NCBI GenBank assembly: GCA_903970515.1
Contig: CAJCJA010000017.1
Location: forward strand, 1-50,405
Direction of reading: 5' to 3'
Length of the DNA stretch: 50,405 nucleotides
From: Candidatus Saccharibacteria bacterium CG_4_10_14_0_2_um_filter_52_9
GTDB taxonomy: Bacteria > Actinomycetota > Acidimicrobiia > Acidimicrobiales > RAAP-2
Shown here one piece after another: positions 17,139 to 33,284 of this stretch. Position 1 is the stretch's first letter; the number at the start of each line of letters is the position of its first letter. The notes below the pieces were generated by a model. It was not told the DNA's origin. It did no database searches and worked only from the letters and a program-made list of their open reading frames with translations. A program made the translations under genes and the position numbers.

Positions 17139-17251
17139 CCGCTTTGGTCGTATTTTCACTTAGAACAAGTTTGAGGAAACACTTAACGCTGACGTAATCA
17201 GGGCCCACTTCGCGTGGTGATGGTTCGGCTATTGTCCAAATCACAAACTGT

Positions 17252-17291
17252 CCGGCAAGTGAAAAAGCGTCATAGCTACTTCACAAGCCGG
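17252..17291 (+). promoter_or_regulatory. stem-loop in the leader of the nucleoside-transport operon
   Basis: CCGGCAAGTGAA (17252-17263) and TTCACAAGCCGG (17280-17291) pair at 10 of 12 positions around a 16-nt loop. The structure ends 14 nt before the GGAGG ribosome-binding site of the substrate-binding protein. A further TTTTCACTT at 17153-17161 is the exact complement of 17257-17265. It could be a DNA operator with repeated TTCACTT half-sites or an RNA leader structure. Confidence 0.45.
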
Positions 17292-17315
17292 CAAATCAAT
17301 TTTCCGGAGGGAAGA

Positions 17316-18503: not shown

Positions 18504-18523
18504 CGCCTCCGAGTTGTAATTCG

Positions 18524-18565
18524 AACTACGAGGGGCTGGGCCACACGGCTCAGCCCCTCGTAGTT
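18524..18565 (+). terminator. strong hairpin between the binding-protein and ATPase genes (attenuator)
   Basis: AACTACGAGGGGCTG (18524-18538) pairs perfectly with CAGCCCCTCGTAGTT (18551-18565). The stem continues inward with a G-U pair and GCC/GGC around an ACAC loop, so it is about 19 bp. TTTCTAAAT follows. Placed inside the operon, it probably acts as a partial terminator or 3' stabiliser that keeps the binding protein in excess over the ATPase and permeases. Confidence 0.75.
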
Positions 18566-18592
18566 TCTAAATGACTGACAACGGATTGAACG

Positions 18593-20113
18593 ATGAAACT
18601 TGAGCTGCGCGGCATCACCAAGAGATTCGGTTCGCTCACCGCAAACAGCAACGTAAGCCTGGTCGTCAATCCCGGCGAGATTCATTGCTTGCTGGGAGAG
18701 AATGGCGCCGGGAAATCGACGCTGATGAACATCCTCTATGGGCTCATCACCCCCGACGAGGGACAGATCCTGATTGACGACGAAGTCGTCACGATTGCCG
18801 ATCCGAAGGACGCCGTAAACCACGGAATCGGCATGGTGCATCAGCACTTCATGCTCATTCCAGTCTTTAGTGTCGCCGACAACGTGATCCTCGGTTCTGA
18901 GCCCGTTAAGCCCTGGCCAGTGATCGACTACAAGGCGGCGACTACTCGGCTGCTCGAACTCGCCAAGGAATACGGTTTCGAAATCGATGATCCAAACGCG
19001 ACGGTGGAGAATCTCCCTATCGGTGCTCAGCAGCGCGTCGAGATCCTCAAGGCGCTAAGCCACGACGCGTCGGTGCTGATCCTGGATGAACCAACCGCAG
19101 TATTGACGCCTCAAGAGACTGACGCCTTCATGGTCATCTTGCGTTCGCTCAAGGCGAGCGGCAAGTCCATCATCTTCATCACTCACAAACTCCGCGAAGT
19201 CCTCGCGCTGGCTGACGTCATCACCGTCATGCGCCTCGGCGAAGTCGTCGGCGTCACCACACCCGCTCAGACTGACGAGCGCGGACTCGCCACGATGATG
19301 GTGGGGCGCACCGTCAACTTCGTGGTCGAGAAAGTCCCCGCTACGCCGGGCGACGTGGTGTTAGAAGTGCGCGACCTCTACGTCGAAGACGCCCGTGGAC
19401 TCACGAGCGTCAAGAACGTGTCGTTCGAAGTCCGAGCCGGCGAGATACTGGCCGTCGCTGGTGTCCAGGGCAATGGACAGACTGAACTCGTCGAAGCACT
19501 GACGGGTATGCGCCATCCATCGTCGGGGAGCATCATGCTCAACGACGTCAATCTCGCTGGACAGAGCGTGCGTCACTTCTTGAACGCGGGCGTCGGACAC
19601 GTGCCCGAAGACCGTCAGCGTTACGGTCTCATTCCGAGTCTGTCGATATCGGACAATTTGGTGCTCGACCAACTCGACGACGCTCGTTTCCTGCGTCGAT
19701 TCGGAAGGAATTTGAAAGCAATCAAAGCCAACGGTGCCAAACTTCGCGAGTCCTTCGACATCCGCTCCCAAAGCGAGGAAGCACCCGTCGGCGCTCTATC
19801 GGGGGGCAATCAACAAAAGGTAGTGATGGCGCGCGAACTCTCGCGTGAACTCAAGATCTTGATCTGCTCGCAACCAACGCGCGGTCTCGACGTTGGGTCG
19901 ATCGAATTCATGCACCGCCAGATTGTCGATATCCGCGACTCCGGTGTGGCGGTCATTATCGTCTCGAGCGAACTCGACGAAGTGGTCGCTCTAGGTGATC
20001 GCGTCGCGGTTCTCTACGATGGCGAGATCCAAGCCATCGTTCCTCCCACGACGAGCCGCGAGGAGTTCGGCCTCTTGATGGCCGGTGCCGGTGCGGCGAA
20101 GGTAACGCTGTGA
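18593..20113 (+). CDS. nucleoside ABC transporter, double ATP-binding protein (NupA/RbsA-like)
   Basis: 506 residues with two ABC domains in tandem. The first has CLLGENGAGKSTLMNILYGL, NLPIGAQQRVEILKALSHDA and LILDEPTAVLTPQE. The second has VAGVQGNGQTELVEALTGM, ALSGGNQQKVVMARELSREL and the degenerate Walker B region LICSQPTRGLDVGS. This unequal layout is normal for the simple-sugar/nucleoside ATPase subfamily. The protein drives the permease pair on the cytoplasmic face. Its stop overlaps the start of the first permease (GTGA), so the two are translationally coupled. Confidence 0.92.
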   Translation: MKLELRGITKRFGSLTANSNVSLVVNPGEIHCLLGENGAGKSTLMNILYGLITPDEGQILIDDEVVTIADPKDAVNHGIGMVHQHFMLIPVFSVADNVILGSEPVKPWPVIDYKAATTRLLELAKEYGFEIDDPNATVENLPIGAQQRVEILKALSHDASVLILDEPTAVLTPQETDAFMVILRSLKASGKSIIFITHKLREVLALADVITVMRLGEVVGVTTPAQTDERGLATMMVGRTVNFVVEKVPATPGDVVLEVRDLYVEDARGLTSVKNVSFEVRAGEILAVAGVQGNGQTELVEALTGMRHPSSGSIMLNDVNLAGQSVRHFLNAGVGHVPEDRQRYGLIPSLSISDNLVLDQLDDARFLRRFGRNLKAIKANGAKLRESFDIRSQSEEAPVGALSGGNQQKVVMARELSRELKILICSQPTRGLDVGSIEFMHRQIVDIRDSGVAVIIVSSELDEVVALGDRVAVLYDGEIQAIVPPTTSREEFGLLMAGAGAAKVTL

Positions 20114-21375
20114 CCACAACGGAATTTCAAGATCCTCAATTTGGTACGATCTTGCGCTTCGCGATGCGCGCTCGACAGGCCAACATGTTCATCGTGCTGG
20201 TCCTGGCGCTCTTCGTCGGGCTCGCATTTGGCGCCATCATGATTATCGTCACCCAGCCCACCCTGCTCACTTCGTGGTCGCACTTCTTTCACCATCCGGG
20301 AGGGACGATCGCGAGCAGTTTCAATACCGTCTGGTTCGCGTACGAACAGCTCTTTCAAGGAGCCGTGGTCAACTTCCACGCGTTGCGAATGCTGATCGAC
20401 GACCCGAGCAAGGCCAACCTCGGAATTGTTCTCGGTCCGTTGTCGGCAACGTTGACGTACGCGACACCACTGATCGTCGCTGGACTCGGGCTCGCCATTG
20501 GATTTCGCAGTTCGCTATTCAACATCGGAGGACAAGGTCAAGTTATTCTCGGCGGCGTTCTGGCACTGCTCGTGGGATTCTCTTTTCACATGACCCCCGT
20601 GTTGCAAGTAGCTCTCGAGATGCTTGCCGCGATGGCGGGCGGGGCTCTGCTCGCGGGATTTGCGGGCGTGCTGAAGGCCTACACCGGTGCCCACGAGGTG
20701 ATTGTCACGATGATGAGCAATTACACGATGATCGCAGTCCTCGGGTACTTACTGATCCAGCCCCTCTTCGCTCGCCCGGGCGTACTCGATGGTGCCTCCA
20801 AAGCGGTCGGCGTGACCGGCCAGCTCCCGTATTTTTTCTCGCGCATCAATTCGTCGCTGCTACTCAACTTCGGATTCGTCATCGCCCTCGTTGCGGTCTT
20901 CGGCGTGCAGTGGTTCTTTGACCGCTCGAAGACCGGCTTCGAACTCCTCATGGTTGGCCAGAATCCCGATGCCGCGCGGGTCGCAGGAATTAACTCACGA
21001 CGCTCGATCATTATCTGCCTGGCGTTCGCGGGATGCTTGCTCGGACTCGCGGGGATGCTGGAGCTCACCGGCGTCGACCATTTCGTCACCCCGAACTTTG
21101 GTGGCTCCTATGGTTTCGACGCGATCACCGTCGCGTTGCTGGGTCGAAACAAGCCCTGGGGCGTTTTTTTCGCGGCGATCTTCTTTGGTGCGATGTTCTC
21201 AGGCGGCGAAGCGATGCAAGCATTCACGCCCACGAACATTCAATTCTCCTTGGCCGATGTCATCCAAGCCGTGGTCGTCTTCTGTGTGGCGACGCCCGCA
21301 CTGCTTGTCGAGGTCTTTCATCTTCGCGGCGGCGCTCGACTTGTGAGTAACAACAACACCGGAGGTTGGGTCTGA
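20110..21375 (+). CDS. nucleoside ABC transporter permease 1
   Basis: 421 residues, BPD_transp_2 (branched-chain/ribose-type) permease. The N-terminal tail is followed by about nine hydrophobic segments. FRSSLFNIGGQGQVILGGVL is the EAA-like family signature. KAYTGAHEVIVTMMSNYTMIAVLGYLL and FELLMVGQNPDAARVAGINS are conserved in guanosine-type (NupB/YufP) permeases. GFDAITVALLGRNKPWGVFF follows near the end. GTG 20110 overlaps the ATPase stop. The stop TGA overlaps the next ATG (TGATG). With the second permease it forms the membrane channel. Confidence 0.9.
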   Translation: MTTTEFQDPQFGTILRFAMRARQANMFIVLVLALFVGLAFGAIMIIVTQPTLLTSWSHFFHHPGGTIASSFNTVWFAYEQLFQGAVVNFHALRMLIDDPSKANLGIVLGPLSATLTYATPLIVAGLGLAIGFRSSLFNIGGQGQVILGGVLALLVGFSFHMTPVLQVALEMLAAMAGGALLAGFAGVLKAYTGAHEVIVTMMSNYTMIAVLGYLLIQPLFARPGVLDGASKAVGVTGQLPYFFSRINSSLLLNFGFVIALVAVFGVQWFFDRSKTGFELLMVGQNPDAARVAGINSRRSIIICLAFAGCLLGLAGMLELTGVDHFVTPNFGGSYGFDAITVALLGRNKPWGVFFAAIFFGAMFSGGEAMQAFTPTNIQFSLADVIQAVVVFCVATPALLVEVFHLRGGARLVSNNNTGGWV

Positions 21376-22874
21376 TGAGCACCGCATCACGCGAAATCGT
21401 CACGCTGAACAATCTGCGAGTTGTATCACGTACGCGATCACTGGCCTACGGCATCACGCTCATGGGGATGGGCCTCCTCGAAATTGTCTGGTACGGATCG
21501 ACCGATTCGAAGCTGCATACCGTCATTCAGTTCGGCTACAACACCGCGACGGTTTGGCCCGTCGTCTCGAGCATATGGAAGTTCATCCTCGTGTTCGCGG
21601 GAGTCGGCATCATTGCGGCCGTGGTGCGCGTGAGGGCGTTTCCGCGTCTCGCTCGCATCTTCGCGACGGTGCGAGGCACGCGAACGATCGCCCTACTCAT
21701 CGGTGCGTATTTGCTGATCTGGCCCGTGCTGCTGTGGTTGGGTATCAATCACGGTGGTCAACTGCGCACCATGAGTGTTGACGTTGCCTACACCGGATAC
21801 CTATTTGGATGTGCGAGCATCATTGTCGGTGGGCTCACGGCGTGGAAGCGTTTCGACCGTAGCTCCTCGGGCATCTTGTATGGCGGCCTGTTAGTCTTTC
21901 TCCTCGGCTTTTTAATCTGGGTCGCGCGCGGCAGCCTCGACCTGCAACTGACGAGCATCCTGGCGAGCGCCGTTGCCGCATCCACGTTCTTGATGTTCGG
22001 CTCCCTGTCAGGAACATTGTGCGAGCGTTCGGGCGTGGTGAACATCGCCATTGAGGGACAGTTCATGGCGGGCGCCCTCTCGTCGATCGTCTTCGCGAGC
22101 GCGTTTCACGGAACGGGCATCTCGATGACCTTCGCGCTGCTCTTCGCGGGCCTCTTCGGCGCCTTCTTCGGTTGGATCCTCGCCGTAATGGCCCTTCGCT
22201 ACCAGGCGAACCAGATCATCGTAGGTGTCGTCATCGTCGCCTTTTGCACTGCGATGACGCAATTCCTCACGACCCAGGTCCTCGACATCCACCAGAATCT
22301 CGATGGTTCCTATGGTCTGCCGGTCTGGGCAATTCCGGGGCTCTCACACATCCCACTCATCGGGCCAATTCTCTTTGATCAGAACGTACTCGTCTTCATT
22401 GGATTCGCCGCCGTGATCATCGCCAACTTCGCCCTGTTTCGTACGCGCTGGGGACTTCGCGTGCGCTCAGTCGGCGAAAAGCCGATCGCCTCGGAGACGG
22501 TCGGTATCAACGTCGTCCACGTGCGCTACGGGGCCGTCATCCTCGGGGGCTTCATCGCGGGCGTTGGTGGCGCCGGTTTCACGCTAGGGCCGGGATCACC
22601 CTTCACGTTCGGCATGACGGCGGGTTACGGCTACATCGCACTCGCCATCATGATCTTTGGACGCTGGCGCCCGTATGGCGCGTTGATGGCGTCGCTACTC
22701 TTCGGTTTCACGATCGCACTTAGCGCCAATCTCAATCTCTATCTAACTCAGTTGGTCATACCCCAACAGTTCATCACCGCACTGCCGTATCTCATAACGA
22801 TCGCCGTGGTGTCAGGTCTCGTGGGACGCATTCGACCACCCGCCGCGGACGGCGTACCCTTCCAGCGTCACTAG
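21375..22874 (+). CDS. nucleoside ABC transporter permease 2
   Basis: 499 residues. The first 190 carry four to five extra helices. The rest is the standard permease core: LSGTLCERSGVVNIAIEGQF, ALRYQANQIIVGVVIVAFCT, and RVRSVGEKPIASETVGINVV followed by AGYGYIALAIMIFGRWRPYG, as in NupC/YufQ-type proteins. The long N-terminal extension is larger than usual for this subunit. ATG 21375 is set by GGAGG at 21361-21365 and overlaps the previous stop. The end shares the bases CTAG (22871-22874) with the stop of the convergent psuK. Confidence 0.88.
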   Translation: MSTASREIVTLNNLRVVSRTRSLAYGITLMGMGLLEIVWYGSTDSKLHTVIQFGYNTATVWPVVSSIWKFILVFAGVGIIAAVVRVRAFPRLARIFATVRGTRTIALLIGAYLLIWPVLLWLGINHGGQLRTMSVDVAYTGYLFGCASIIVGGLTAWKRFDRSSSGILYGGLLVFLLGFLIWVARGSLDLQLTSILASAVAASTFLMFGSLSGTLCERSGVVNIAIEGQFMAGALSSIVFASAFHGTGISMTFALLFAGLFGAFFGWILAVMALRYQANQIIVGVVIVAFCTAMTQFLTTQVLDIHQNLDGSYGLPVWAIPGLSHIPLIGPILFDQNVLVFIGFAAVIIANFALFRTRWGLRVRSVGEKPIASETVGINVVHVRYGAVILGGFIAGVGGAGFTLGPGSPFTFGMTAGYGYIALAIMIFGRWRPYGALMASLLFGFTIALSANLNLYLTQLVIPQQFITALPYLITIAVVSGLVGRIRPPAADGVPFQRH

Positions 22875-23749
22875 GGGCGAGAGCCCATTCGTCGCACCAC
22901 TTGCGCCGCGCGGCTCATCGCGAGTTCGAGCGACTGGTTACAACTTCGACCACTCAAGCGACGTGACAAGTACACCCCGGTCGCCGCATCGCCGGCGCCG
23001 GTCGTGTCGACGACCTCGACATTACGTGACGGCTTTCGCACGACCTCGCCCTCGCACGACGCGATTGCCCCGCCTTTGCCGAGCGTGATCACGACCTCTC
23101 TCGATCGCTCCTGGAGGAACTTCAGTGCGTTGCGAATATCGTTCTCGCCCGACAACTCCTTCGCCTCCTCCTGATTCGCGAACAACATCGTCACCGGGCC
23201 GATTGCCTTCAGGAATTTCTTCGCCCCGACCTGGCGCAATGGTCCCACCGAGCAGACGTCGACCGACGTGCTTGCTCCGTGCTCATGAGCGATCCAGAGC
23301 GCTTCGGTCGCCAATTTTCGCGTGCGCTGGTCGAGCACCGTGTAACCCGAGACGTGCAGGTGATCGAAATGACTCGCGAGACCGCTACGAACCACTTCGG
23401 ACGTGAGACGGGGATTGACGCCCCGATCAGTCAACATGGCGCGCTGACCCTTGTCGTTCACGAACGCCACGACGACGCCGGTCGAGCCCGGCAGCACGTG
23501 CAACAGCGGTGTCACGTCGGCGTCGCGAAGGTCGCGCGCGAACACCTCGCCCGCCGAGTCGTCGCCGATGACGCCCACGAAGGCCACCTGATGGTTGAGG
23601 GCCACCTCGACCCCGATGTTTGCCGCCGATCCGCCACGTGCGAGACGGACCTTTGATGACGTGTCACTCGTCAGATGCACGGGCTCGAGCGCGCGCACCA
23701 CGACGTCGAGCATCGCGTCACCGAGTATGACGACGTGTTTTTGATTCAT
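22871..23749 (-). CDS. psuK: PfkB-family carbohydrate kinase, probable pseudouridine kinase
   Basis: 292 residues. The ribokinase-like fold shows an N-terminal VVILGDAMLDVVV, the sugar-binding LARGGSAANIGVEVALN, the anion-hole signature VVDTTGAGDAATGVYLSRRL with the catalytic Asp, and VVITLGKGGAIA. The family phosphorylates sugars or nucleosides. The assignment to pseudouridine rests on context: its ATG overlaps the stop of psuG by ATGA. PsuK makes pseudouridine 5'-phosphate, which PsuG splits into uracil and ribose 5-phosphate. Without the neighbour I would only call it a PfkB kinase. Confidence 0.82.
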   Translation of the reverse strand: MNQKHVVILGDAMLDVVVRALEPVHLTSDTSSKVRLARGGSAANIGVEVALNHQVAFVGVIGDDSAGEVFARDLRDADVTPLLHVLPGSTGVVVAFVNDKGQRAMLTDRGVNPRLTSEVVRSGLASHFDHLHVSGYTVLDQRTRKLATEALWIAHEHGASTSVDVCSVGPLRQVGAKKFLKAIGPVTMLFANQEEAKELSGENDIRNALKFLQERSREVVITLGKGGAIASCEGEVVRKPSRNVEVVDTTGAGDAATGVYLSRRLSGRSCNQSLELAMSRAAQVVRRMGSRP

Positions 23750-24675
23750 GATCGCGATCTCGCGATCTCCACGGCGATCTGTGAGGCGACGGTGGCATTC
23801 GCGACGACCAATTCGCGATTTACCTGGACACTCTTTCCACCGGTGTAGTTCGCGAACTCCGACAAGAGAACTGGCGTCACTTCTTTACCCGTGGCGCCGA
23901 GCTCGCTCGCCTTACGTAGCGCGCTGGCTAGGGCGTCGTCGTGCAGCGTGGCGTCCAATTGGGCACTTGCGTCGACCGGATTGGCGACGAGCATGCCCGT
24001 AGGTGAGAACAAGCGATGGGCCAAGAATGCCTTCGCGGCGTCGCGGGGACTCTCTACGGACCAGTCAAGGCTCAATCCACTATCGCTGCGATAAAACCCG
24101 GGAAACTTCAACGTGCGATATCCAACGACCGGCACGCCGAGTGAATCGAGCCGCTCGAGGGTTGCCGCGATGTCGAGGATGGACTTGACGCCCGACGCGA
24201 CGACCGCGACCGAGGTTCGCGACAACGCAGTCAGATCGGCGGACTCGTCAAAACTCTGTTGCGCCGCACGATGCACACCGCCGAGCCCGCCGGTCGCCAT
24301 GACGGCGATGTTGAGTGCTCGCGCGACGGCGATGGTGCCCGCGACCGTTGTCGCACCGTCGACCTCATTGGCAAGAGCAAGCCCGAGGTCGCGCGCCGAC
24401 AACTTCGCGGCGCGTCGACGGGGCGACGCGAGTTCCTCGAGTTCGTCGTCGCGAAGTCCCACCACGATCTTTCCGTTGAGGACGCCAATCGTCGCGGGCA
24501 CGCTCCCCGCGTTACGCACGGCCTTGTCACATTCGCTGGCGACTTCGAGATTGATCGGCGCGGGAAGTCCGTGCACGACGATTGTCGTCTCGAGGGCGAC
24601 GACGCCGCGACCTTCGAAGAGAGCCGTCGCGACCTCATCGCTCAACGTCACATGTTGTTCCAAGAATTTGTCCAC
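23746..24675 (-). CDS. psuG: pseudouridine-5'-phosphate glycosidase
   Basis: 309 residues, near the E. coli length. It cleaves the C-C glycosidic bond of pseudouridine 5'-phosphate. ALETTIVVHGLPAPINLEVA is the N-terminal signature. TTVAGTIAVARALNIAVMAT precedes GGLGGVHRAAQQSFDESADL (metal region) and VVASGVKSILDIAATLERL (Schiff-base lysine region). PTGMLVANPVD and the final NRELVVANATVASQIAVEI also fit. The frame is open to 24765, but that overlaps the divergent cdd promoter. GTG 24675 (MDKFLEQHVTLSDEV) gives a family-like N-terminus. First gene of psuG-psuK. Confidence 0.93.
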   Translation of the reverse strand: MDKFLEQHVTLSDEVATALFEGRGVVALETTIVVHGLPAPINLEVASECDKAVRNAGSVPATIGVLNGKIVVGLRDDELEELASPRRRAAKLSARDLGLALANEVDGATTVAGTIAVARALNIAVMATGGLGGVHRAAQQSFDESADLTALSRTSVAVVASGVKSILDIAATLERLDSLGVPVVGYRTLKFPGFYRSDSGLSLDWSVESPRDAAKAFLAHRLFSPTGMLVANPVDASAQLDATLHDDALASALRKASELGATGKEVTPVLLSEFANYTGGKSVQVNRELVVANATVASQIAVEIARSRS

Positions 24676-24684
24676 GCACTGCGA

Positions 24685-24690
24685 AGTGTA
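24685..24690 (-). promoter_or_regulatory. -10-like hexamer TACACT of psuG-psuK
   Basis: Minus-strand TACACT lies 9 nt before GTG 24675. It shares bases 24689-24690 with the plus-strand -10-like hexamer of cdd, so the two promoters exclude each other physically. Confidence 0.4.
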
Positions 24691-24694
24691 CTGT
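24689..24694 (+). promoter_or_regulatory. -10-like hexamer TACTGT of cdd-deoA
   Basis: TACTGT lies 6 nt before GTG 24701, the inferred leaderless start of cdd. Confidence 0.5.
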
Positions 24695-24700
24695 TTGACC

Positions 24701-25120
24701 GTGAGTTCCTTGAATGAGATTCCGTGGAATGAATTGCGTGCACGCGCCGTACACGCGAGCACCACTTCCTACAGTCCCTATTCCAACGTCAGGGTGGGAG
24801 CAGCTGGTTACACGACCGACGGCCGCATCGTCGAGGGCGCCAACGTGGAGAACGCCAGTTATGGTCTGACGCTCTGCGCGGAGTGCTCGCTCGTGAGCGA
24901 TCTGATCCGCCAAGGTGGTGGTCGCCTCGCCGGGGTTGCCGTGGTGGCGGGTGACCACCAGCCCATCGCCCCTTGTGGTCGATGCCGCCAACTTCTCTTC
25001 GAACACGGCGGCAACGGGCTCTTGATCGACGCGGGCGAGGGACTCGACGCCAAACACCTTCACGAACTTCTCCCAGATGCCTTCGGGCCCGAGGACCTGG
25101 GAACTCGCAAGGATCGATGA
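24701..25120 (+). CDS. cdd: cytidine deaminase
   Basis: 139 residues, homotetrameric Zn type. It converts cytidine and deoxycytidine to uridine and deoxyuridine. SYSPYSNVRVGAAG is the substrate-binding start. VEGANVENASYGLTLCAECS carries the catalytic C-A-E with the first Zn cysteine. IAPCGRCRQLLFE gives the P-C-x-x-C Zn ligands. An upstream open frame runs from 24113 through the opposite-strand psuG and is spurious. GTG 24701 (MSSLNEIPWNELRARA) is set by the -10-like hexamer 6 nt before it. The stop overlaps the deoA start by ATGA. Confidence 0.92.
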   Translation: MSSLNEIPWNELRARAVHASTTSYSPYSNVRVGAAGYTTDGRIVEGANVENASYGLTLCAECSLVSDLIRQGGGRLAGVAVVAGDHQPIAPCGRCRQLLFEHGGNGLLIDAGEGLDAKHLHELLPDAFGPEDLGTRKDR

Positions 25121-26397
25121 GCACGTTCTCCGCCGTCGACGTCATTGGTGCCAAGCGAAACGGTGACGAGCTCAGCGATGAGGCGATTTCGTGGGTCCTG
25201 GGCGCGTATCAGCGCGGCGAGGTCGCCGAAGAGCAGATGTCCGCGTTGCTGATGGCGATCTACTTTCAAGGTCTGGGGGAAAGAGAACTAGGGACCTGGA
25301 CCGATCAAATGATCGCGTCGGGCGAGAGGCTCGATTTGCGCGGACTGTCACGCCCAACCGTCGACAAGCATTCGACCGGGGGCGTAGGCGACAAGATTTC
25401 CTTGATCCTCGCTCCCCTCGTCGCCGCGTGCGGAGCCGCGGTGCCACAACTCTCTGGACGCGGTCTCGGCCACACCGGAGGGACGCTCGACAAACTCGAG
25501 TCCATTCCGGGTTGGCGCGCCGCGCTCAGCAATGACGAGATCCGCGCACAACTCGAGTCAGTAGGTGCAGTGATCTGCGCGGCCGGGCAAGGACTGGCGC
25601 CCGTCGACCGACGACTGTACGCACTGCGTGACGTCACCAGCACGGTCGAGTCGATTCCACTCATCTCGTCGTCGATCATGTCAAAGAAAATCGCTGAGGG
25701 AACTCAGGCGCTCGTACTCGACGTCAAGGTCGGACGTGGCGCGTTCATCAAGACAATCGAGCGCGCGCAGGAATTGGCGACGACGATGGTGGGGCTCGGT
25801 ACGAACCACGGTGTCGCGACCGTCGCGCAACTTACGGCGATGAATCAGCCGCTCGGCGAAGCGGTGGGCAATGCGCTCGAAGTGATCGAATCAGTGCAGG
25901 TCTTGCAGGGTGGCGGCCCCCGAGACGTGCGAGAACTCACGTTGGCGCTCGCTACGACCATGCTCGAGCTCGTGGACATCGAGCAAGATCCCGCCACCAA
26001 GCTCGACGATGGTTCTGCCTACGAGGTCTACCGCGCGATGATCGAAGCTCAAGGCGGTGACGCGGACGTCGTGCTCGCCGCATCAAAGTTGCACGAAGTG
26101 ATTGAGGCGGACGACGAGGGAGTCGTCACGCGCGTCGATGCACTGCGCGTCGGCGTGTGCGCGTGGCGACTGGGCGCGGGTCGAGCGCGCAAGGAAGACG
26201 CCGTGAGTGCCGGCGCGGGCGTGATGTGTCGAGTACGAGAAGGCGATCACGTCGCGAAGGGACAGCCCCTCTTCGAGATCTACGCCGACGACGAGTCACA
26301 CCTGCGCCAAGGTCGCGAAACGATTCGCGACGCCTTCACTCTCAACGGCGAACCCAGTAACGTCATGCCTCTTCTGCTCGAGACGATCACATCGTAA
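25117..26397 (+). CDS. deoA: thymidine/pyrimidine-nucleoside phosphorylase
   Basis: 426 residues. It splits thymidine, deoxyuridine or uridine with phosphate to base and (deoxy)ribose 1-phosphate. The helical domain begins FSAVDVIGAKRNGDELSDEA. DKHSTGGVGDKISLILAPLV binds phosphate. SGRGLGHTGGTLDKLESIPG is the family signature. SIMSKKIAEGTQALVLDVKV holds the substrate-binding S and K. The C-terminal PYNP_C domain ends with GAGVMCRVREGDHVAKGQPL. An ATGA overlap couples it to cdd, so cytidine is deaminated and then phosphorolysed. Pdp (pyrimidine-wide) and DeoA types cannot be separated by eye. Confidence 0.92.
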   Translation: MSTFSAVDVIGAKRNGDELSDEAISWVLGAYQRGEVAEEQMSALLMAIYFQGLGERELGTWTDQMIASGERLDLRGLSRPTVDKHSTGGVGDKISLILAPLVAACGAAVPQLSGRGLGHTGGTLDKLESIPGWRAALSNDEIRAQLESVGAVICAAGQGLAPVDRRLYALRDVTSTVESIPLISSSIMSKKIAEGTQALVLDVKVGRGAFIKTIERAQELATTMVGLGTNHGVATVAQLTAMNQPLGEAVGNALEVIESVQVLQGGGPRDVRELTLALATTMLELVDIEQDPATKLDDGSAYEVYRAMIEAQGGDADVVLAASKLHEVIEADDEGVVTRVDALRVGVCAWRLGAGRARKEDAVSAGAGVMCRVREGDHVAKGQPLFEIYADDESHLRQGRETIRDAFTLNGEPSNVMPLLLETITS

Positions 26398-26414
26398 TTT
26401 CCACGCGCGACAAC

Positions 26415-26420
26415 TAGCCT
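26415..26420 (+). promoter_or_regulatory. -10-like hexamer TAGCCT of add
   Basis: TAGCCT lies 6 nt before ATG 26427. The intervening TGAGGC is too close to the ATG to serve as a ribosome-binding site. Confidence 0.5.
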
Positions 26421-26426
26421 TGAGGC

Positions 26427-27518
26427 ATGTCCGCGCCGGCACTCACGAGAGATGTGATCGTAGAAGCGCCCAAGGTGCTACTGCACGATCACCTCGACGG
26501 CGGACTTCGACCAGCGACCGTGCTCGAGCTGGCGAAGGACGTTGGTTACGGTGAACTGCCCACCGACGATCCCGCCCAACTTCGCGAGTGGTTCATTGCC
26601 GATGCGCCCGGGAGTGACCTCGTTCGCTACCTCGATGGCTTTCGCCACACCACCGCTCTCATGCAGACGAGAGACCAACTCGAGCGCGTGGCGAGCGAGA
26701 GCGCGCTGGACCTCGCGCGCGACGGTGTCGTCTACGCCGAGGTGCGTTTCGCGCCCGAACTTCACCTGCACCGTGGCCTCAAGCTCGACGAGGTGGTCGA
26801 ATCCGTGTTGGCCGGGTTCGCTCACGGGACTCGCCAGGCCGCTCTCGAAGGCAAAGTGATCATTGTGCGCGCCATCCTCTCGGCGATGCGCCAAGCCAAC
26901 GTGAGCGAGGAAATCGCCGCCCTCGCCGTTTCGTTCCGCGACCACGGCGTGTGCGGTTTTGACATCGCGGGGCCCGAGGACGGCTTTCCCCCGACCGAAC
27001 ACCTGCGAGCGTTCCATCTCATCCAACGCGAGAACTTCCACATGACGATCCACGCGGGCGAAGCATTCGGGTTGCCCTCCATATGGGAAGCGGTGCAGTT
27101 CTGCAATGCGGAGCGTCTCGGCCACGGGGTGCGAATCGTCGACGATATCAAGCACGTGGGCGACCACTACGAGCTAGGCCGCCTCGCCAATTACGTGCGC
27201 GACCGACGAATACCGCTGGAGGTGTGTCCGACCTCGAACGTCCACACGGGCGCGGCGAAGTCCATCGCGACCCACCCGATCGAGTTGCTGCGAGCGCTGC
27301 GCTTCCGCGTAACGCTCAATACGGATAACCGCTTGATGAGTGGCATCACCTTGTCGAGCGAATTCGAAATCTGCGCGAGTACGTTCAACTGGACCCTCGC
27401 CGACATGGAATGGCTCACGCTCAACGCCGCGAAGAGCGCGTTCTCTCCATTCGATCAGCGACTCGCCTTGATCAACACCATCATCAAACCTGGCTACGCC
27501 GCCCTTCGTTCGCCCTAG
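26427..27518 (+). CDS. add: adenosine deaminase
   Basis: 363 residues, Zn TIM-barrel amidohydrolase converting (deoxy)adenosine to (deoxy)inosine. VLLHDHLDGGLRPATVLELA supplies the H-x-H metal ligands. GFDIAGPEDGFP is the conserved substrate loop. MTIHAGEAFG provides a third His and the catalytic Glu follows. AERLGHGVRI and TLNTDNRLMSG carry the remaining His and Asp. The NTDNRLMS form is what I expect for actinobacterial enzymes. It makes inosine for the PunA encoded on the opposite strand just downstream. Its stop shares CTAG (27515-27518) with the convergent mutase gene. Confidence 0.94.
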   Translation: MSAPALTRDVIVEAPKVLLHDHLDGGLRPATVLELAKDVGYGELPTDDPAQLREWFIADAPGSDLVRYLDGFRHTTALMQTRDQLERVASESALDLARDGVVYAEVRFAPELHLHRGLKLDEVVESVLAGFAHGTRQAALEGKVIIVRAILSAMRQANVSEEIAALAVSFRDHGVCGFDIAGPEDGFPPTEHLRAFHLIQRENFHMTIHAGEAFGLPSIWEAVQFCNAERLGHGVRIVDDIKHVGDHYELGRLANYVRDRRIPLEVCPTSNVHTGAAKSIATHPIELLRALRFRVTLNTDNRLMSGITLSSEFEICASTFNWTLADMEWLTLNAAKSAFSPFDQRLALINTIIKPGYAALRSP

Positions 27519-29167
27519 AGAGCGAGCAATCCGTCGAGGTCGTTTCGAACGAGGTCCAACGTTCGCTGACATTGTTCTCGCAGTGGCGCGAGTTGCCTCG
27601 TCGCATCGGGCGGCGCCGTAATCTCCACGTAGGCCTTCAACTTCGCCTCCGTGCCCGAAGGCCGCACGACCACTCGGCCCCGCGACCCCAGTTCCAGCAC
27701 AACGCCGTCGGTGGGTGCGAGCCCCTCGTAACCCTTGGCGAGGTCCGCGACCGAACTCACCGCGACGCCTCCGAGCACTGCTGGTGGCGACGTGCGAAGA
27801 CGTTGCACCGCGTCGCGAATCGCGTCCAGCCCGTCGGGTCCCTCCGCGCGGAGGGACAATTGCGTGCCGGCGTGCACGCCAAAGGTCGTTTCGATCTCGT
27901 CAAGTCGGTCGAGTAGCGTGGCCCCGCGCTCAGCAAGATCGTGCGCTAAGCGAGCAATCGCGAGCGCCGCCGACATGCCGTCCTTATCGGCGACCAGAGG
28001 ATCGACCGCGAAACCGAGTGCTTCCTCGTAACCGAATCCCAGAGCGAGCGATCCGGCCGCGCGCGAGATCCACTTGAAACCCGTCAGGGTGACGACGAAG
28101 TGTACGTTGGCTGTCGCGGCCATCTTCTCGAGCATCGTCGACGAGACGATGCTCGTCGCGACGACGTTGTCGTGGGACATCGAAGGCAACAACGCCGACG
28201 CGAGCAACCAACCAATCTCGTCACCGCGCAATGTCCGCCAACGCTCGTGGTCCTTCACCGCGACGCCCAGGCGGTCGGCGTCCGGATCGTTCGCGATGAC
28301 GAGTGAGGATCCGGCGTCCTGCGCGGTTCGTATCGCGAGGTCGAGCGCCCCCGGTTCTTCGGGATTGGGAAACGCCAACGTGGGAAAGCGACCGTCGGGT
28401 TCGAACTGACTCGCCACGACCGTGACGCGAGAGAATCCTGCTTCTTCGAAGAGCTCGGTCATCAGCCGTCCCCCCACACCGTGCATCGGGGTATAGGTGA
28501 TCGCGAGTTCACTGCGTGCGACGCCGAATCGTGCGACGAAATGGTTCCGGTACGCGGCGATGGTGGCGTCATCGACGTAGTGGTGCAAGTCGCTCCGTCG
28601 ATCCTCAAGCAGCGGTGTGAGCGGCTCCGCCATCAAACCCTCGACGATGCCATCACTAGGCGGAATGATCTGTGACCCGCTGTGGTCGTAGAGTTTGTAG
28701 CCATTGTCGCGCGCGGGATTGTGACTCGCCGTGATCATGATGCCCGCGCCGAGTCCGAGAGCCTTGACGACGAAGGGTACGAGTGGCGTGGGCAACGGAG
28801 CCGGCAATTCAACGACGCGCACGCCCGCGCCAAGAAGCACCATCACGACTTCATCATTGAACTTCTCCGAGCCGCGCCGAGCGTCACGACCCACCACGAC
28901 GCCCGTCTCGCGCGCGACCCCGGTCGCGTCTAACCAACCCACCACTCCCTGCGTGGCGCGCCGTACGGTGTGGCGGTTCATGCCCGAGGGCCCCGGCATC
29001 TCAGGACCACGAAGCCCCGCGGTTCCGAACCGCAAGGGAGCGCCGAAGAGTCGTCGTAACTCTTCCTCGTTGTCGGCGTCAAGCAGGTCTTGGAGCGTCG
29101 CGCGGTCGCGTTGGTCGGGTTCCACCGCGATCCACGCCCTCACCGTGGCGTCCAATTCTTGGTTCAC
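27515..29167 (-). CDS. phospho-sugar mutase (alpha-D-phosphohexomutase, PGM2-like), probable phosphopentomutase
   Basis: 550 residues in four domains. FGTAGLRGPEMPG lies near residue 47. The phosphoserine loop is GIMITASHNPARDNGYKLYD. The metal loop is SLVIANDPDADRLGVAV, the sugar-binding loop is GFGYEEALGF, and the phosphate loop is RVVVRPSGTEAKLKAYVE. Such enzymes move phosphate between C1 and C6 of hexoses, or C1 and C5 of pentoses in the PGM2 branch. It is the last gene of the deoC operon, and no DeoB-type mutase is present. Conversion of (deoxy)ribose 1-phosphate to 5-phosphate is therefore the natural role (inference). GTG 29167 overlaps the punA stop (GTGA). Confidence 0.88.
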   Translation of the reverse strand: MNQELDATVRAWIAVEPDQRDRATLQDLLDADNEEELRRLFGAPLRFGTAGLRGPEMPGPSGMNRHTVRRATQGVVGWLDATGVARETGVVVGRDARRGSEKFNDEVVMVLLGAGVRVVELPAPLPTPLVPFVVKALGLGAGIMITASHNPARDNGYKLYDHSGSQIIPPSDGIVEGLMAEPLTPLLEDRRSDLHHYVDDATIAAYRNHFVARFGVARSELAITYTPMHGVGGRLMTELFEEAGFSRVTVVASQFEPDGRFPTLAFPNPEEPGALDLAIRTAQDAGSSLVIANDPDADRLGVAVKDHERWRTLRGDEIGWLLASALLPSMSHDNVVATSIVSSTMLEKMAATANVHFVVTLTGFKWISRAAGSLALGFGYEEALGFAVDPLVADKDGMSAALAIARLAHDLAERGATLLDRLDEIETTFGVHAGTQLSLRAEGPDGLDAIRDAVQRLRTSPPAVLGGVAVSSVADLAKGYEGLAPTDGVVLELGSRGRVVVRPSGTEAKLKAYVEITAPPDATRQLAPLREQCQRTLDLVRNDLDGLLAL

Positions 29168-29979
29168 AAGACGGGTACGACGCGTGCGAGCAACGCACCG
29201 AGTGAACTCGCGGCCTGTTGTCCGGCTTCGAGCACTTCGAGGTGATTGAGCGCGCCCGCAGCGACTCCGGCCGCGTAATTCGTGATCAAGCTGAGGCCCA
29301 GGACCTCGGCACCGAGGTGACGAGCGGCAATCGCTTCAAGGACCGTCGACATGCCGACGAGCGAAGCTCCCATCGTGCGAGCCATAGCGATTTCTGCGGG
29401 CGTTTCGTAGTGAGGGCCTCGAAAACCGGCGTAGACGCCCTCGGTGATGTCGGGCACCGTCGCGTTCACGAGCGCCCGAAGCCGCTTGCTGTAGAGGTCG
29501 CTGAGATCAACGAAACGAGCACCGTACCCTGCGGGCGGCGCGGCGCCTTCGAGAGGTGATGTCGACGTCAGATTGATGTGGTCACTGATCATGACGACGG
29601 TGCCCGGACCCTTCGCGGGATCGATGCCGCCGCAGGCGTTGGTCAACACGACCGACGTGGCGCCCGCCGCGATCACGGTGCGGACCGGATGGACGACTTG
29701 GTCGGGCGAGTTGCCCTCGTAGAGATGCACGCGCCCCGCCACCAGGGCAACGTTCTTATCGTTGACGCGCACGCTCAGTATCTGGCCGCTATGACCCGCT
29801 ACCGTCGGGGCGACGAATCCGCTCAGTGAACTCGACAGGATCTCGCTACTCGGTACGCCGAGCGCCGTCGCCCCTTCGCGCCATCCCGAACCGAGGATGA
29901 TCGCCACGTCGTAGCTACCGACGCCGGTCATTTCGCGAAGTTCGTCCGCTGCCCGGTGACTGAGTTCATAAGGATTCAT
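29164..29979 (-). CDS. punA: purine-nucleoside phosphorylase, trimeric type
   Basis: 271 residues. It splits inosine, guanosine and deoxy forms to base and (deoxy)ribose 1-phosphate. AIILGSGWREGATALG is the N-terminal phosphate loop. VALVAGRVHLYEG and LTNACGGIDPAKGPGTVVMI, followed by SDHIN, match PNP. FRGPHYETPAEIAMARTMGA binds phosphate and base. LSLITNYAAGV has the purine-contacting Asn. W replaces the usual L in LGSGLG. I start it at ATG 29979, 2 nt after the upstream stop; the longer frame to 30003 overlaps that gene. It sits between the short ALDH-like gene and the mutase. Confidence 0.9.
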   Translation of the reverse strand: MNPYELSHRAADELREMTGVGSYDVAIILGSGWREGATALGVPSSEILSSSLSGFVAPTVAGHSGQILSVRVNDKNVALVAGRVHLYEGNSPDQVVHPVRTVIAAGATSVVLTNACGGIDPAKGPGTVVMISDHINLTSTSPLEGAAPPAGYGARFVDLSDLYSKRLRALVNATVPDITEGVYAGFRGPHYETPAEIAMARTMGASLVGMSTVLEAIAARHLGAEVLGLSLITNYAAGVAAGALNHLEVLEAGQQAASSLGALLARVVPVL

Positions 29980-29981
29980 GT

Positions 29982-30836
29982 TCACTGTCCGATCGTGTGC
30001 CACACCGTCGAGGTCTCAACGAACGCGCGAATGCGTCGCAGCGCATCGTCGTCCACGTCCCTCAGGCGAAACACCCGCTTGATGGACCCCGCGGCGACCA
30101 CGTTGAGCTCGTCGACGTCTTCGGGCGCCACACCAGTGAGGTCGACGCCGTCGACGTCCTCGTGCGCGCACAGCACGGGCGCCAGCTCACTCGTGACGCC
30201 GGTGATGACGTTCAGCACGCCCGGAGGAAAGTCCGAGGTCGCGGTCATCTCGCCCAGCAACACGGCCGGCGTCGGTCGGCGTTCGCTCGCGAGCGCGACC
30301 ACCGTATTGCCCGCCGCAATGGGTGCCAACGCCGCGTCGACGAAGCCCTCGAAGGAGGAGTCCTGTGACGACACGATACCGATGACGCCGGAGGGCACCG
30401 GCAAGGAGAAATTGAAGAAGGGACCCGCGACGGGATTGGCGCCCCCTAGTACCTGAGTGATTTTGTCGGTCCAACCCGCGTACCAGATCATCGTGTCGAT
30501 CGTCCGACTCACGAGTCGATCAGCCACTTCGAGCTCGAGACCTTCGCAGAGCATCACGTGCTCGCGCAACTCAGCGCGCCGCGACTCGGCCATCTCGGCG
30601 AGACGATAAATGACTTGACCTCGGTTGTACGGCGTGGCGCCCCACCACTTTTGTTGGACGCCTCGCGCCGCAACGACCGCATCGCGGACATCTTTGCGTG
30701 AACCTTGGGCGACGTTGGCAAGGAATTCCCCCGTAGCGGTCTCGACCTTGTAACTACGACCGGACTCCGAACGTGGAAAGGCCCCATTGATCAAGAGCTT
30801 GTACGTCTTTCTCACGTCGAGACGTTCTTCAGACAT
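29982..30836 (-). CDS. short aldehyde-dehydrogenase-like protein without active-site residues (ALDH16 C-domain-like pseudoenzyme)
   Basis: 284 residues, colinear with the first part of an ALDH: KLLINGAFPRSESGRSYKVE, then AVVAARGVQQKWWGATPYNR and WYAGWTDKITQVLGGANPVA. The key sites are lost. IVSSQDSSFEGF stands where active ALDHs have PWNFPL (Asn gone). ALASERRP replaces LKPAE (Lys gone). LTGVAPEDVDEL replaces FTGSTEVG. The chain ends before ELGGK (Glu) and the catalytic Cys. It overlaps the full-length ALDH gene by 8 bp. Full ALDH plus degenerate short ALDH equals the two-domain plan of ALDH16 proteins, here as two genes. A structural or regulatory partner is likely (inference). Confidence 0.85.
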   Translation of the reverse strand: MSEERLDVRKTYKLLINGAFPRSESGRSYKVETATGEFLANVAQGSRKDVRDAVVAARGVQQKWWGATPYNRGQVIYRLAEMAESRRAELREHVMLCEGLELEVADRLVSRTIDTMIWYAGWTDKITQVLGGANPVAGPFFNFSLPVPSGVIGIVSSQDSSFEGFVDAALAPIAAGNTVVALASERRPTPAVLLGEMTATSDFPPGVLNVITGVTSELAPVLCAHEDVDGVDLTGVAPEDVDELNVVAAGSIKRVFRLRDVDDDALRRIRAFVETSTVWHTIGQ

Positions 30837-32292
30837 CGAGGTACCCCTCCAATCCGTGCCGCCCGCCTTCGCGCCCGAAACCCGATTCGCGCATGCCCCC
30901 GAAGGGGCTGGTGGGGTCGAAGCGGTTATAGGTGTTCGCCCAGATCACGCCCGCACGAAGTCGCTGCGCGACCCAGAGCGTGCGACTTCCCTTCTCGCTC
31001 CACACCCCGCACGCGAGTCCGTACTTCGTGTTGTTCGCCTTGACGACCGCTTCCTCGGGTGTTCGAAACGTGAGGACCGAGAGCACGGGCCCGAAGATCT
31101 CTTCTCGAGCGATGCGGTGCGACTGGGCGACGTCGGCGAAGATCGTCGGAGCGAACCAGTAGCCCTTCTCGGGTAGGACGCAACTGCTCGTGTAGCGCGT
31201 CGCTCCCTCGCGCTCTCCATACGCCGTCAACTCCTCGATGCGTGAAAGCTGTGCCGCGGAGTTGATCGCACCGATGTCGGTGTTCTTGTCCATCGGATCT
31301 CCGACGCGCAGTTGATCGACGCGACGGACCAATCGCCGCAACACCTCGTCGGCAATCGACTCTTGGACGAGTAGACGTGAACCGGCACAGCACACGTGAC
31401 CCTGATTGAAGAAGATACCGTCGATGATTCCCTCGATCATTTCGTCGATCGGCGCGTCCTCGAAGACGATGTTGGCACCCTTCCCCCCGAGCTCCAATGT
31501 CAAGTGCTTCTGGCTCGAGGCGGTGCGTTGTTGGATGAGTCGTCCGACTTCGGTGGAACCGGTAAAGGCGATCTTGTCGACGCCGTCATGTTCGACGAGC
31601 GCACTGCCACTCGCACCGTCACCCGTCACGATGTTGACGACGCCAGGGGGCAAGTCAGCTTGTTGCAGGATTTCTGCCAACGCCAAGGCGCTCAAGGACG
31701 TGCTCTCGGCGGGCTTGAGAACGCACGTGTTCCCGGCGGCGAGTGCCGGAGCGAGTTTCCACGCCGCCATGAGTAGCGGGAAGTTCCAAGGGATGATCTG
31801 TCCCGCGACCCCAAGTGGTCGTGGATTGACCCCAAATCCGGCGTAGTCGAGCTTGTCCGCCCAGCCCGCGTAGTAGAAGAAGTGTGCCGCGGCGAGGGGA
31901 ATATCGACGTCGCGTGACTCTCGTATGGGTTTGCCGTTGTCGAGAGTCTCGAGCACGGCCAACTCGCGAGAGCGTTCTTGGATGAGACGAGCGATGCGAA
32001 AGAGGTACTTCGCGCGCTCGGCGCCACTCGTCTTCGACCACACCGTGTCGTAGGCACGCCGAGCACTCCTGACCGCTCGATCGATGTCCGCCTCACTCGA
32101 CTGAGCGATTGTTGCGAGCAACTCCTCGTTCGCCGGATTCAACGTGACGAAGTGCTCGTGCGACGAGGGCTCAGTGAATTCGCCGTCGATGAAGAGTCCA
32201 TAGCTGGCGTGCAGATTCACGACACTGGTCGACTCCGGCGCAGGGTCGTAGGCGAATGCCCCGAGTTGTGAATTGGCGAGGCTCTCACCCAT
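30829..32292 (-). CDS. aldehyde dehydrogenase, full length
   Basis: 487 residues with all active-site elements. IIPWNFPLLMAAWKLAPALA gives Asn, and VLKPAE gives the cofactor Lys. FTGSTEVGRLIQ is the NAD loop. LTLELGGKGANIVF carries the general-base Glu and FNQGHVCCAGSRLLV the nucleophilic Cys. EEIFGPVLSVLTF and SPFGGMRESGFGREGG finish the fold. The Glu makes hydrolytic NAD(P)-dependent oxidation to an acid more likely than CoA acylation. Downstream of deoC, acetaldehyde is the natural substrate (inference). The start overlaps the deoC stop by one base (TGATG). The C-terminus overlaps the short ALDH-like gene by 8 bp. Confidence 0.92.
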   Translation of the reverse strand: MGESLANSQLGAFAYDPAPESTSVVNLHASYGLFIDGEFTEPSSHEHFVTLNPANEELLATIAQSSEADIDRAVRSARRAYDTVWSKTSGAERAKYLFRIARLIQERSRELAVLETLDNGKPIRESRDVDIPLAAAHFFYYAGWADKLDYAGFGVNPRPLGVAGQIIPWNFPLLMAAWKLAPALAAGNTCVLKPAESTSLSALALAEILQQADLPPGVVNIVTGDGASGSALVEHDGVDKIAFTGSTEVGRLIQQRTASSQKHLTLELGGKGANIVFEDAPIDEMIEGIIDGIFFNQGHVCCAGSRLLVQESIADEVLRRLVRRVDQLRVGDPMDKNTDIGAINSAAQLSRIEELTAYGEREGATRYTSSCVLPEKGYWFAPTIFADVAQSHRIAREEIFGPVLSVLTFRTPEEAVVKANNTKYGLACGVWSEKGSRTLWVAQRLRAGVIWANTYNRFDPTSPFGGMRESGFGREGGRHGLEGYLDV

Positions 32293-33284
32293 CAGTCGCC
32301 ACTGAATTCATCGGGACGCACGTACGCGCCGCGTTGTTGCTTGAGTCGTTGCATCAGCAGGTCGTTCAACAATGACGACGCGCCGAATCTGAACAGCTCG
32401 GGGGTGAGCCACAACGAACCAGCCGTCTCATTGACGATGACCAGATACGAGATTGCCTGCTTGGTCGTGCGAATACCCCCCGCGACCTTGACGCCGACGA
32501 TTCGTCCGGTGGACTCAGCGAAGTCGCGCGCGGCTTCGAGCATGACGAGCGCCGCCGGCGGCGTGGCATTGACCGTCACCTTGCCGGTCGAGGTCTTGAT
32601 GAAGTCCGCACCCGCGAGCATGGCGAGCCAACTCGCGCGGCGAACATTGTCGTAGGTGACGAGCTCGCCGGTCTCGAGGATCACCTTGAGGTGCGCCTCG
32701 CCACACGCCGCCTTCACGGCGACGATCTCTTCGAACACCTGACCGAGTCGACCGGAGAGAAACGCGCCTCTATCGATCACCATGTCCACTTCGTCGGCGC
32801 CCGCGCTGACGGCGTCAGCGACGTCCAATAACTTCACCTTGAGTGACGCGCGCCCGGAGGGGAAGGCCGTCGCCACCGACGCCACCGCCACTCGGGAATT
32901 GCCTAGCACCGATCGGGCGTGGGCGACCAGGTCGGGATAGACGCACACCGCAGCGCACGAAGGCACCGTCAGGTCACTCGGGTCGGGCCGCAACGCTTTC
33001 GTGCACAGCGACGTGACCCGGCCGGGGGTGTCCGCTCCTTCGAGCGTCGTCAGATCCACCATCGAGATCGCCAAGTCGATCGCCGACATCTTGGACGACT
33101 TTTTGATGGAGCGAGTCGCCAATTTGGCGCAACGTCCCTCGACGCCTACGGCGTCAACGCCCGACATCCCCGAGAGCAACGCTTTTAGCTGCGATTCGGA
33201 ATCAATATTAGGCACCGCGCTCGTCGTGGCGATTCGAACGCCGCGATCTTCTGGCGTCACCAGTCGAAGAGGTGCAGTGCTCAC
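32292..33284 (-). CDS. deoC: deoxyribose-phosphate aldolase
   Basis: 330 residues. It splits 2-deoxyribose 5-phosphate into glyceraldehyde 3-phosphate and acetaldehyde. VPSCAAVCVYPDLVAHARSV, the VASVATAFPSG block, and GADEVDMVIDRGAFLSG hold the conserved Asp. LKVILETGELVTYDNVRRAS precedes the Schiff-base segment GADFIKTSTGKVTVNATPPA, followed by VGVKVAGGIRTTKQA with the second Lys. The size matches the long (eukaryote/actinobacterial-type) DERA rather than the 250-residue E. coli form. GTG 33284 has TAGCGT 7 nt upstream. First gene of deoC-ALDH-short ALDH-punA-mutase, all overlapping or nearly so. Confidence 0.93.
   Translation of the reverse strand: MSTAPLRLVTPEDRGVRIATTSAVPNIDSESQLKALLSGMSGVDAVGVEGRCAKLATRSIKKSSKMSAIDLAISMVDLTTLEGADTPGRVTSLCTKALRPDPSDLTVPSCAAVCVYPDLVAHARSVLGNSRVAVASVATAFPSGRASLKVKLLDVADAVSAGADEVDMVIDRGAFLSGRLGQVFEEIVAVKAACGEAHLKVILETGELVTYDNVRRASWLAMLAGADFIKTSTGKVTVNATPPAALVMLEAARDFAESTGRIVGVKVAGGIRTTKQAISYLVIVNETAGSLWLTPELFRFGASSLLNDLLMQRLKQQRGAYVRPDEFSGD

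Follow-up and report, generated by a model that had tools for sequence, protein, structure and literature searches.

In ordinary aldehyde dehydrogenases (ALDHs), the subunits hold on to one another by an oligomerisation arm, which is made up of a hairpin close to residue 150 and a C-terminal strand. The closest described relative of the system reported here is bacterial ALDH16, a single chain (767 residues in the PDB) with a first and a second ALDH-related domain; PDB entries 6MVR, 6MVS, 6MVT and 6MVU presumably all represent LsALDH16 of Loktanella sp., and Liu and Tanner (2019) is said to be the paper on the ALDH16 structure. As described in PMC8160307, ordinary ALDHs have three conserved domains, among them an arm-like one for oligomerisation, contacts within one LsALDH16 chain mimic quaternary contacts seen elsewhere, and two such chains mimic the classical tetramer; human ALDH16 is called a pseudoenzyme there, without the catalytic Cys. 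Here, we describe two overlapping genes, encoding an ALDH of 487 amino acids (aa) and an ALDH-like protein of 284 aa, in the genome of Candidatus Saccharibacteria bacterium CG_4_10_14_0_2_um_filter_52_9 (Actinomycetota in the GTDB lineage; GenBank assembly GCA_903970515.1; 1.97 Mb in 56 contigs, 96.46% complete). The whole stretch analysed, 50,405 nt of contig CAJCJA010000017.1, is referred to as the window. The identity of the pair as an ALDH16 encoded by two genes is well supported by sequence comparison. No earlier description of a split ALDH16 was found in the literature searched, which did not extend to the main ALDH16 structure paper.

The two genes are located directly behind the gene for deoxyribose-phosphate aldolase (deoC), where the initial annotation had put them: both open reading frames (ORFs) are present, both are on the minus strand and they overlap by 8 bp. 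Their products are called the large and the short protein (or subunit) below, and the elements that concern us first are the following:

32292..33284, minus strand: deoC, deoxyribose-phosphate aldolase, 330 aa (TIGR00126, 173.8 bits against a cut-off of 117.3; PF01791).
30829..32292, minus strand: putative large subunit, catalytic ALDH, 487 aa, orthologue of the ALDH16 first domain (PDB match, tree, residues and tails).
29982..30836, minus strand: putative short subunit, pseudo-ALDH, 284 aa, orthologue of the ALDH16 second domain (tree, PDB match and residue counts).
30829..30836, minus strand: the 8-bp overlap ATGTCTGA, in which the short gene starts within the end of the large gene (sequence).

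The large ORF also shares one base with deoC, and translational coupling of the large and short genes by means of the 8-bp overlap is likely.

Domain libraries do not set either half apart from other ALDHs: Pfam gives PF00171 to the large and the short protein alike, and among the 25 NCBIfam matches shown for each (out of 33 and 45), none reaches its cut-off. We have therefore relied on trees for the assignment, one inferred from shared columns (111 rows, 261 columns; the rows include 39 short proteins, 39 large proteins, five fused ALDH16 and 23 ordinary ALDHs, the latter taken from two genomes) and one from full-length sequences, both of them quick trees without bootstrap. In the shared-column tree, the 39 short proteins and the five ALDH16 second domains make up one side of a branch with a support of 100 in the Shimodaira–Hasegawa-like approximate likelihood ratio test (SH-aLRT), with all 23 ordinary ALDHs outside; we have, on this ground, rejected the reading of the short protein as a truncated ordinary ALDH. 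The 39 large proteins group with the five ALDH16 first domains with an SH-aLRT support of 96 in the shared-column tree and 100 in the full-length tree, the latter resolving the large proteins (98) and the ALDH16 first domains (100) as sisters. Two degenerate groups might, in principle, be joined by long-branch attraction in the shared-column tree, but the large halves, which are not degenerate, show the same relation to ALDH16, and the tail and the gene position agree with it. In a direct comparison with a fused ALDH16 (one chain), the score of the short protein is 129 bits for the second domain, as against 67 for the first. The suggestion made from the bare sequence, i.e., a split ALDH16, is thus supported, as the nearer relatives of the short protein are ALDH16 second domains and not the N-termini of ordinary ALDHs. 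The large protein has as its top PDB match 6mvr_A, over residues 12–474 (551.8 bits; 420.8 for the next other entry).

Alignment confirms the annotated picture of a full-length large protein with all the catalytic residues: N170, K193, S246, E267, C301 and E398 are present in it as in all 39 large proteins aligned (the window’s included), and the catalytic C301 and E267 are kept in the five ALDH16 first domains as well. It also confirms that the short protein has its substrate-site Asn, its cofactor Lys and the Ser of the GSTxxG loop replaced, and the counts in 162 short proteins tell the same: the Asn position is mostly E or D, the Lys position is V, L, I, F or Y in 160, and the loop Ser is still a Ser in only four. 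The short protein has kept a remnant of the domain that binds nicotinamide adenine dinucleotide (NAD), the oligomerisation hairpin and the C-terminal strand, while the catalytic domain is gone. It had been proposed that the chain ends before the catalytic Glu and Cys. The catalytic domain is indeed missing, but there is more to the protein than a truncated chain: a variable linker is followed by the final residues, AFVETSTVWHTIGQ, which can be aligned with the strand at the C-terminus of ordinary ALDHs, so that it is from within the protein that the catalytic domain is missing. The retained elements are located as follows:

30114..30155, minus strand: short residues 228–241, end of the remnant of the NAD-binding domain, with the GSTxxG loop replaced (residues counted at the alignment columns that hold S246 and G250 in the large protein).
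30390..30494, minus strand: short residues 115–149, oligomerisation hairpin region, IDTMIWYAGWTDK...NPVAGPFFNFSLPVP (residue counts between anchor columns).
29985..30026, minus strand: last 14 short residues, oligomerisation strand (alignment with the C-termini of ordinary ALDHs; tail motif).

Between two anchor columns, the hairpin counts 20–32 residues in ordinary ALDHs (median 25, n = 23), 27 in each of 39 short proteins and 24 in the five ALDH16 second domains. The corresponding number is 16 in 37 out of 39 large proteins (14 and 25 in the other two) and 14 in all five ALDH16 first domains. At the other end of the protein, a conserved Tyr is followed by 8–28 residues in ordinary ALDHs, with a strand of the type YTEPKSVWINV, and by 3–7 residues in 28 large proteins, 8–11 in eight and 17–33 in three (39 in all). 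A pattern for the C-terminal strand, derived from the same ordinary tails on which it is tested, matches 23/23 ordinary ALDHs, 150/162 short proteins, 5/5 ALDH16 second domains and 12/149 large proteins, and the motif [TSA][VA]WH occurs near the C-terminus of all 162 short proteins and in none of the ordinary ALDHs or large proteins. The large protein of the window has no C-terminal strand, and its oligomerisation hairpin is shortened. The large protein thus has the catalytic domain with a reduced arm and the short protein has the arm without a catalytic domain; the two are therefore complementary. A few large proteins (L145 and L173; Microbacterium, Agromyces) carry a long, Ala/Lys-rich C-terminal tail, where others stop soon after the GREGG motif.

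Whole genomes were surveyed in Actinomycetota. The loci compared come from three sets, which partly overlap: 41 loci from the class of the source organism (in which 72 genomes have the short gene), 80 loci from named genomes plus one plasmid record, and 40 loci from the phylum. Among the 162 short sequences, 159 are distinct, and a duplicate locus (L259) brings the number of loci to 163. Among 198 class genomes, 89 match the short protein, 72 of them strongly and 17 with weaker ALDH matches only; among 396 phylum genomes, 97 pass an E-value of 1e-40, 83 of them with a strong match and 14 with weaker ALDH matches only. A scan of named genomes yielded at least 588 relatives; the best 80 are Actinomycetota by title, most commonly Streptomyces.

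The short gene is regularly accompanied by the large one, which lies at most 300 bp upstream and on the same strand in 157 of the 163 loci. In two more (L073 and L236), it is 482 and 1032 bp away, and in four (L119, L136, L230 and L231), the contig ends before it. The commonest arrangements in the 157 close pairs are overlaps of 8 bp (65 pairs), 4 bp (52) and 1 bp (16), as in translationally coupled genes, and none of the 163 actinobacterial loci has the two genes fused into one uninterrupted frame. A class search with a profile of the large protein found 70 of the 198 genomes: with the thresholds used, 68 have both genes, two only the large gene and four only the short one, all six single-gene genomes being cut by a contig end. 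Since the pair recurs across the actinobacterial phylum, it is not a product of chance.

We have considered whether the short protein acts on its own in the operon, binding a ligand as a sensor or regulator. In favour of this are its existence as a chain apart, with a remnant of the fold, and the overlap of its gene with that of purine nucleoside phosphorylase (PNP) in the window. A part of the large gene is, however, visible in each of the four short-only class genomes, the cofactor Lys and the GST-loop Ser are replaced, and Proteobacteria have the same domain fused to an ALDH. On these grounds, i.e., the pairing, the lost cofactor residues and the fusion, we have rejected a lone regulator as very unlikely.

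The short gene could also be taken for a copy of the large gene that is decaying and has stayed beside it by chance, given its degenerate ALDH core and the 29% identity of the two proteins of the window over 238 aligned positions. Against this stand the open frame in all those class and phylum genomes, the C-terminal motif conserved in every short protein, and the relationships of the short protein, which is nearer to ALDH16 second domains than to its large neighbour. Selection was estimated by the Nei-Gojobori method against five close relatives, with synonymous divergence (dS) of 0.98–1.58. The ratio of nonsynonymous divergence (dN) to dS is 0.07–0.18 for the short gene, 0.035–0.089 for the large gene and 0.048–0.176 for the PNP gene: purifying selection acts on the short gene much as it does on PNP, and more loosely than on the large gene. 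The short gene is, therefore, neither a lone nor a decaying one; with recurrence, dN/dS, C-terminal motif and tree position all speaking against a pseudogene, we have rejected that explanation as extremely improbable.

Very small genomes of the class (family f22, 0.6–1.1 Mb; loci L037–L045 and L048) keep deoC and the split pair. Their short proteins are 32–37% identical to that of the window and sit on a long tree branch, and their large proteins are 58–62% identical; this streamlined lineage has kept the genes, but the short one has diverged fast.

In the window, five genes follow each other on the minus strand, in the direction of transcription deoC, the 487-aa ALDH, the 284-aa ALDH-like protein, PNP and a phosphohexomutase-family gene, with successive overlaps of 1, 8, 22 and 4 bp. 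Across the loci compared, deoC occurs upstream of the pair, on the same strand, in all 148 loci with room for it, less than 0.8 kb away in 143 of these. In the stretches first read, it was present in 36/37 class, 76/76 named and 34/35 phylum loci with room, three of the named ones (L120, L133 and L156) being counted by eye owing to a shifted or misplaced start of the large gene. Once more sequence was read, deoC was found 4.2 and 2.6 kb upstream in L077 and L234, and in L209, L216 and L224 it lies 0.9–1.9 kb away.

The fused form keeps the same company. A search of plasmid records with the second domain of LsALDH16 returned 157 records, mostly of Sinorhizobium and Agrobacterium. We examined ten annotated plasmid records, a sample that is not random and consists mostly of Alphaproteobacteria: two each of Nitratireductor, Sinorhizobium and Caballeronia, and one each of Pacificitalea, Phyllobacterium, Marivivens and Agrobacterium. 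In 10/10, deoC is followed on the same strand, after 4–26 bp, by a fused ALDH16 of 786–799 aa. The split form has its large ORF end approximately where the linker of the fused chains starts.

The orthology of each half, their pairing and their conservation were computed directly from the sequences. That the large and short halves form one enzyme, a two-subunit ALDH16, is, in our judgement, quite probable. The assembly is probably alpha2beta2: the arm of the short subunit would dock on the catalytic domain of the large subunit to give a pseudo-dimer, and two pseudo-dimers would join into an alpha2beta2 assembly mimicking the classical ALDH tetramer, in the way reported for the dimer of fused ALDH16. 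The reduced arm of the large protein would fit a short partner of this kind, because an arm on the large protein would have nothing to dock on in the short one.

A number of points weigh against a two-subunit enzyme. Being homologous to fused ALDH16 is no proof that the halves, once apart, have kept their binding to each other, and the short gene evolves faster than the large gene (dN 0.068–0.210 vs. 0.042–0.108). The groups cannot be told apart by the length of the tail alone, since 11 of 39 large proteins reach eight or more residues past the Tyr, like ordinary ALDHs; there are 12 large tails that match the strand pattern, of which the ten displayed (YLKGADQ, YLDWSEA, etc.) look like chance fits. 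An earlier, narrower tail motif matches no large protein (0/149), but only 4/23 ordinary ALDHs, which makes it a poor control; its companion pattern matches 116/162 short proteins. The first PDB match of the short protein is 6mvu_A (114.4 bits; next entry 90.7), and this ranking is modest evidence, because the score is a sum over two stretches: the second-domain stretch alone (residues 500–764 of 6mvu_A) scores 85.5 bits, below the 90.2 of an ordinary retinal dehydrogenase over a shorter stretch. As a group of their own, the 39 short proteins are supported at only 46 in the shared-column tree, so that the two trees do not both show the split to have arisen once. The likely substrate, acetaldehyde, is deduced from gene order. 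Finally, the assembly model does not account for the N-terminal KTYKL.I.G.FPRSESGR, in which short proteins are more conserved than in any other segment. Measured as the mean majority share over 162 short rows (approximately 89 effective), the conservation of this segment is 0.88, ahead of the C-terminal strand (0.79) and the hairpin (0.77), with lower values for the Rossmann core, the N-lobe helices and the linker (0.67, 0.63 and 0.43, respectively). The segment (short residues 10–27, window 30756–30809) is unlike RTAKxxxGGKQARPDxxYS, found in the second domains of fused ALDH16.

That same segment, together with the constant presence of deoC beside split and fused forms alike, could suit a short protein that is a docking or channelling adaptor, tethering the ALDH to DeoC (or PNP) and dispensable for ALDH assembly. 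The arm, shortened in the large protein and full in the short one, points to assembly first, and the large and short genes stay together in L209, L216, L224, L234 and L077 though deoC is 0.9–4.2 kb away; such an adaptor is, therefore, unlikely. Amongst the roles originally proposed for the short protein, i.e., stabilising the enzyme, localising it or channelling acetaldehyde from DeoC, the first is the best supported, whereas gene order is what localisation and channelling have in their favour, and channelling is speculation.

For the two-subunit enzyme, the neighbourhood suggests a place in deoxynucleoside breakdown. Deoxynucleosides would be cut by PNP (and thymidine phosphorylase), the mutase would then yield deoxyribose 5-phosphate, and DeoC would split the latter into glyceraldehyde 3-phosphate and acetaldehyde, which are given as the DeoC products in PMC6365646. 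The split ALDH16 would oxidise the acetaldehyde to acetate, presumably with NAD as the cofactor. An acetaldehyde-removing ALDH fits here because the window holds a PnrA-like ABC (ATP-binding cassette) importer and genes for nucleoside breakdown. The main substrate of a split ALDH16 might still be another one, e.g., a small aldehyde from nucleoside or sugar breakdown, and the five loci in which deoC is 0.9–4.2 kb away, as well as the derivation of acetaldehyde from gene order, leave room for it; with deoC upstream in 148/148 loci and beside the fused form in 10/10 records, we think it rather improbable. In Streptomyces lividans, the deoC, PNP and adenosine deaminase genes are all raised in one differential-expression table of PMC6302529.

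The remaining genes at the end of the operon and beyond are:

29164..30003, minus strand: PNP (NF006054, 302.3 bits against a cut-off of 218), overlapping the short gene by 22 bp.
27515..29167, minus strand: phosphohexomutase-family protein (PF02878, PF02879, PF02880 and PF00408; 0/7 NCBIfam matches reach the cut-off).
26427..27518, plus strand: adenosine deaminase, convergent (NF006847, 560.4 bits against a cut-off of 412).

Judging by its context, the phosphohexomutase-family protein is probably a phosphopentomutase, i.e., the deoB equivalent of the operon. Scans of the locus for promoters and terminators, which are uninformative here, found nothing. An island for nucleoside uptake and breakdown extends over window positions 17214–27518 and includes a PnrA-like binding protein, an ABC ATPase, two permeases, cytidine deaminase, thymidine phosphorylase and adenosine deaminase. 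On the minus strand at 22871–24765, a PfkB-type, ribokinase-like kinase is encoded beside a PF04227 (Indigoidine_A) protein; we take the PF04227 family to hold pseudouridine-5′-phosphate glycosidase, and the two genes are probably a pair for the breakdown of pseudouridine.

In a fused ALDH16, the dead domain can be removed only by cutting the protein. In the split pair, the dead half is a separate gene, so that clean deletion, or mixing of the purified subunits, offers a test of what it contributes to assembly, stability or activity. The pair is common, the short gene being present in 83 of the 396 actinobacterial genomes sampled, and Streptomyces is among the named matches. The deoC neighbourhood, common to split and fused forms, gives bacterial ALDH16 members a concrete and testable role. 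With low confidence, we can also imagine the dead subunit as a separate and possibly exchangeable arm, which, in an alpha2beta2 enzyme, switches the catalytic subunit on and docks it to DeoC for the transfer of acetaldehyde. If so, the original role of ALDH16 would be the disposal of acetaldehyde in deoxynucleoside breakdown, and a family whose human member is mentioned in connection with studies of gout would have sat beside purine nucleoside enzymes from early on.

The deo operon of Escherichia coli (deoC-deoA-deoB-deoD) covers the same steps of aldolase, phosphorylases and mutase, but has no aldehyde dehydrogenase among its genes, where here the split ALDH16 follows deoC. Ordinary homotetrameric ALDHs (ALDH2, betaine aldehyde dehydrogenase and ExaC) have the catalytic fold and residues in common with the large subunit; unlike the large subunit, they have an arm of their own, with a hairpin of 20–32 residues and a C-terminal strand in the 23 compared, and, to our knowledge, none of them has a pseudo-subunit. 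Human ALDH16A1 differs, by its description in PMC8160307, in that the large protein here has the catalytic Cys.

LsALDH16 is the nearest of all. The large protein matches its residues 12–474 and the short protein its residues 500–764, each falling with it into the same two tree groups, and in both systems the first domain keeps the catalytic Cys and the second is without a catalytic domain. Unlike in LsALDH16, the halves here are two genes and two chains in different frames, and the linker of the fused protein (approximately 25–35 residues by eye) is absent; the split form occurs here in Actinomycetota and the fused form in plasmids of Pseudomonadota. As the pair lacks the single-chain feature, we class it as a split variant of ALDH16, one that would turn the intrachain contacts of LsALDH16 back into contacts between chains.

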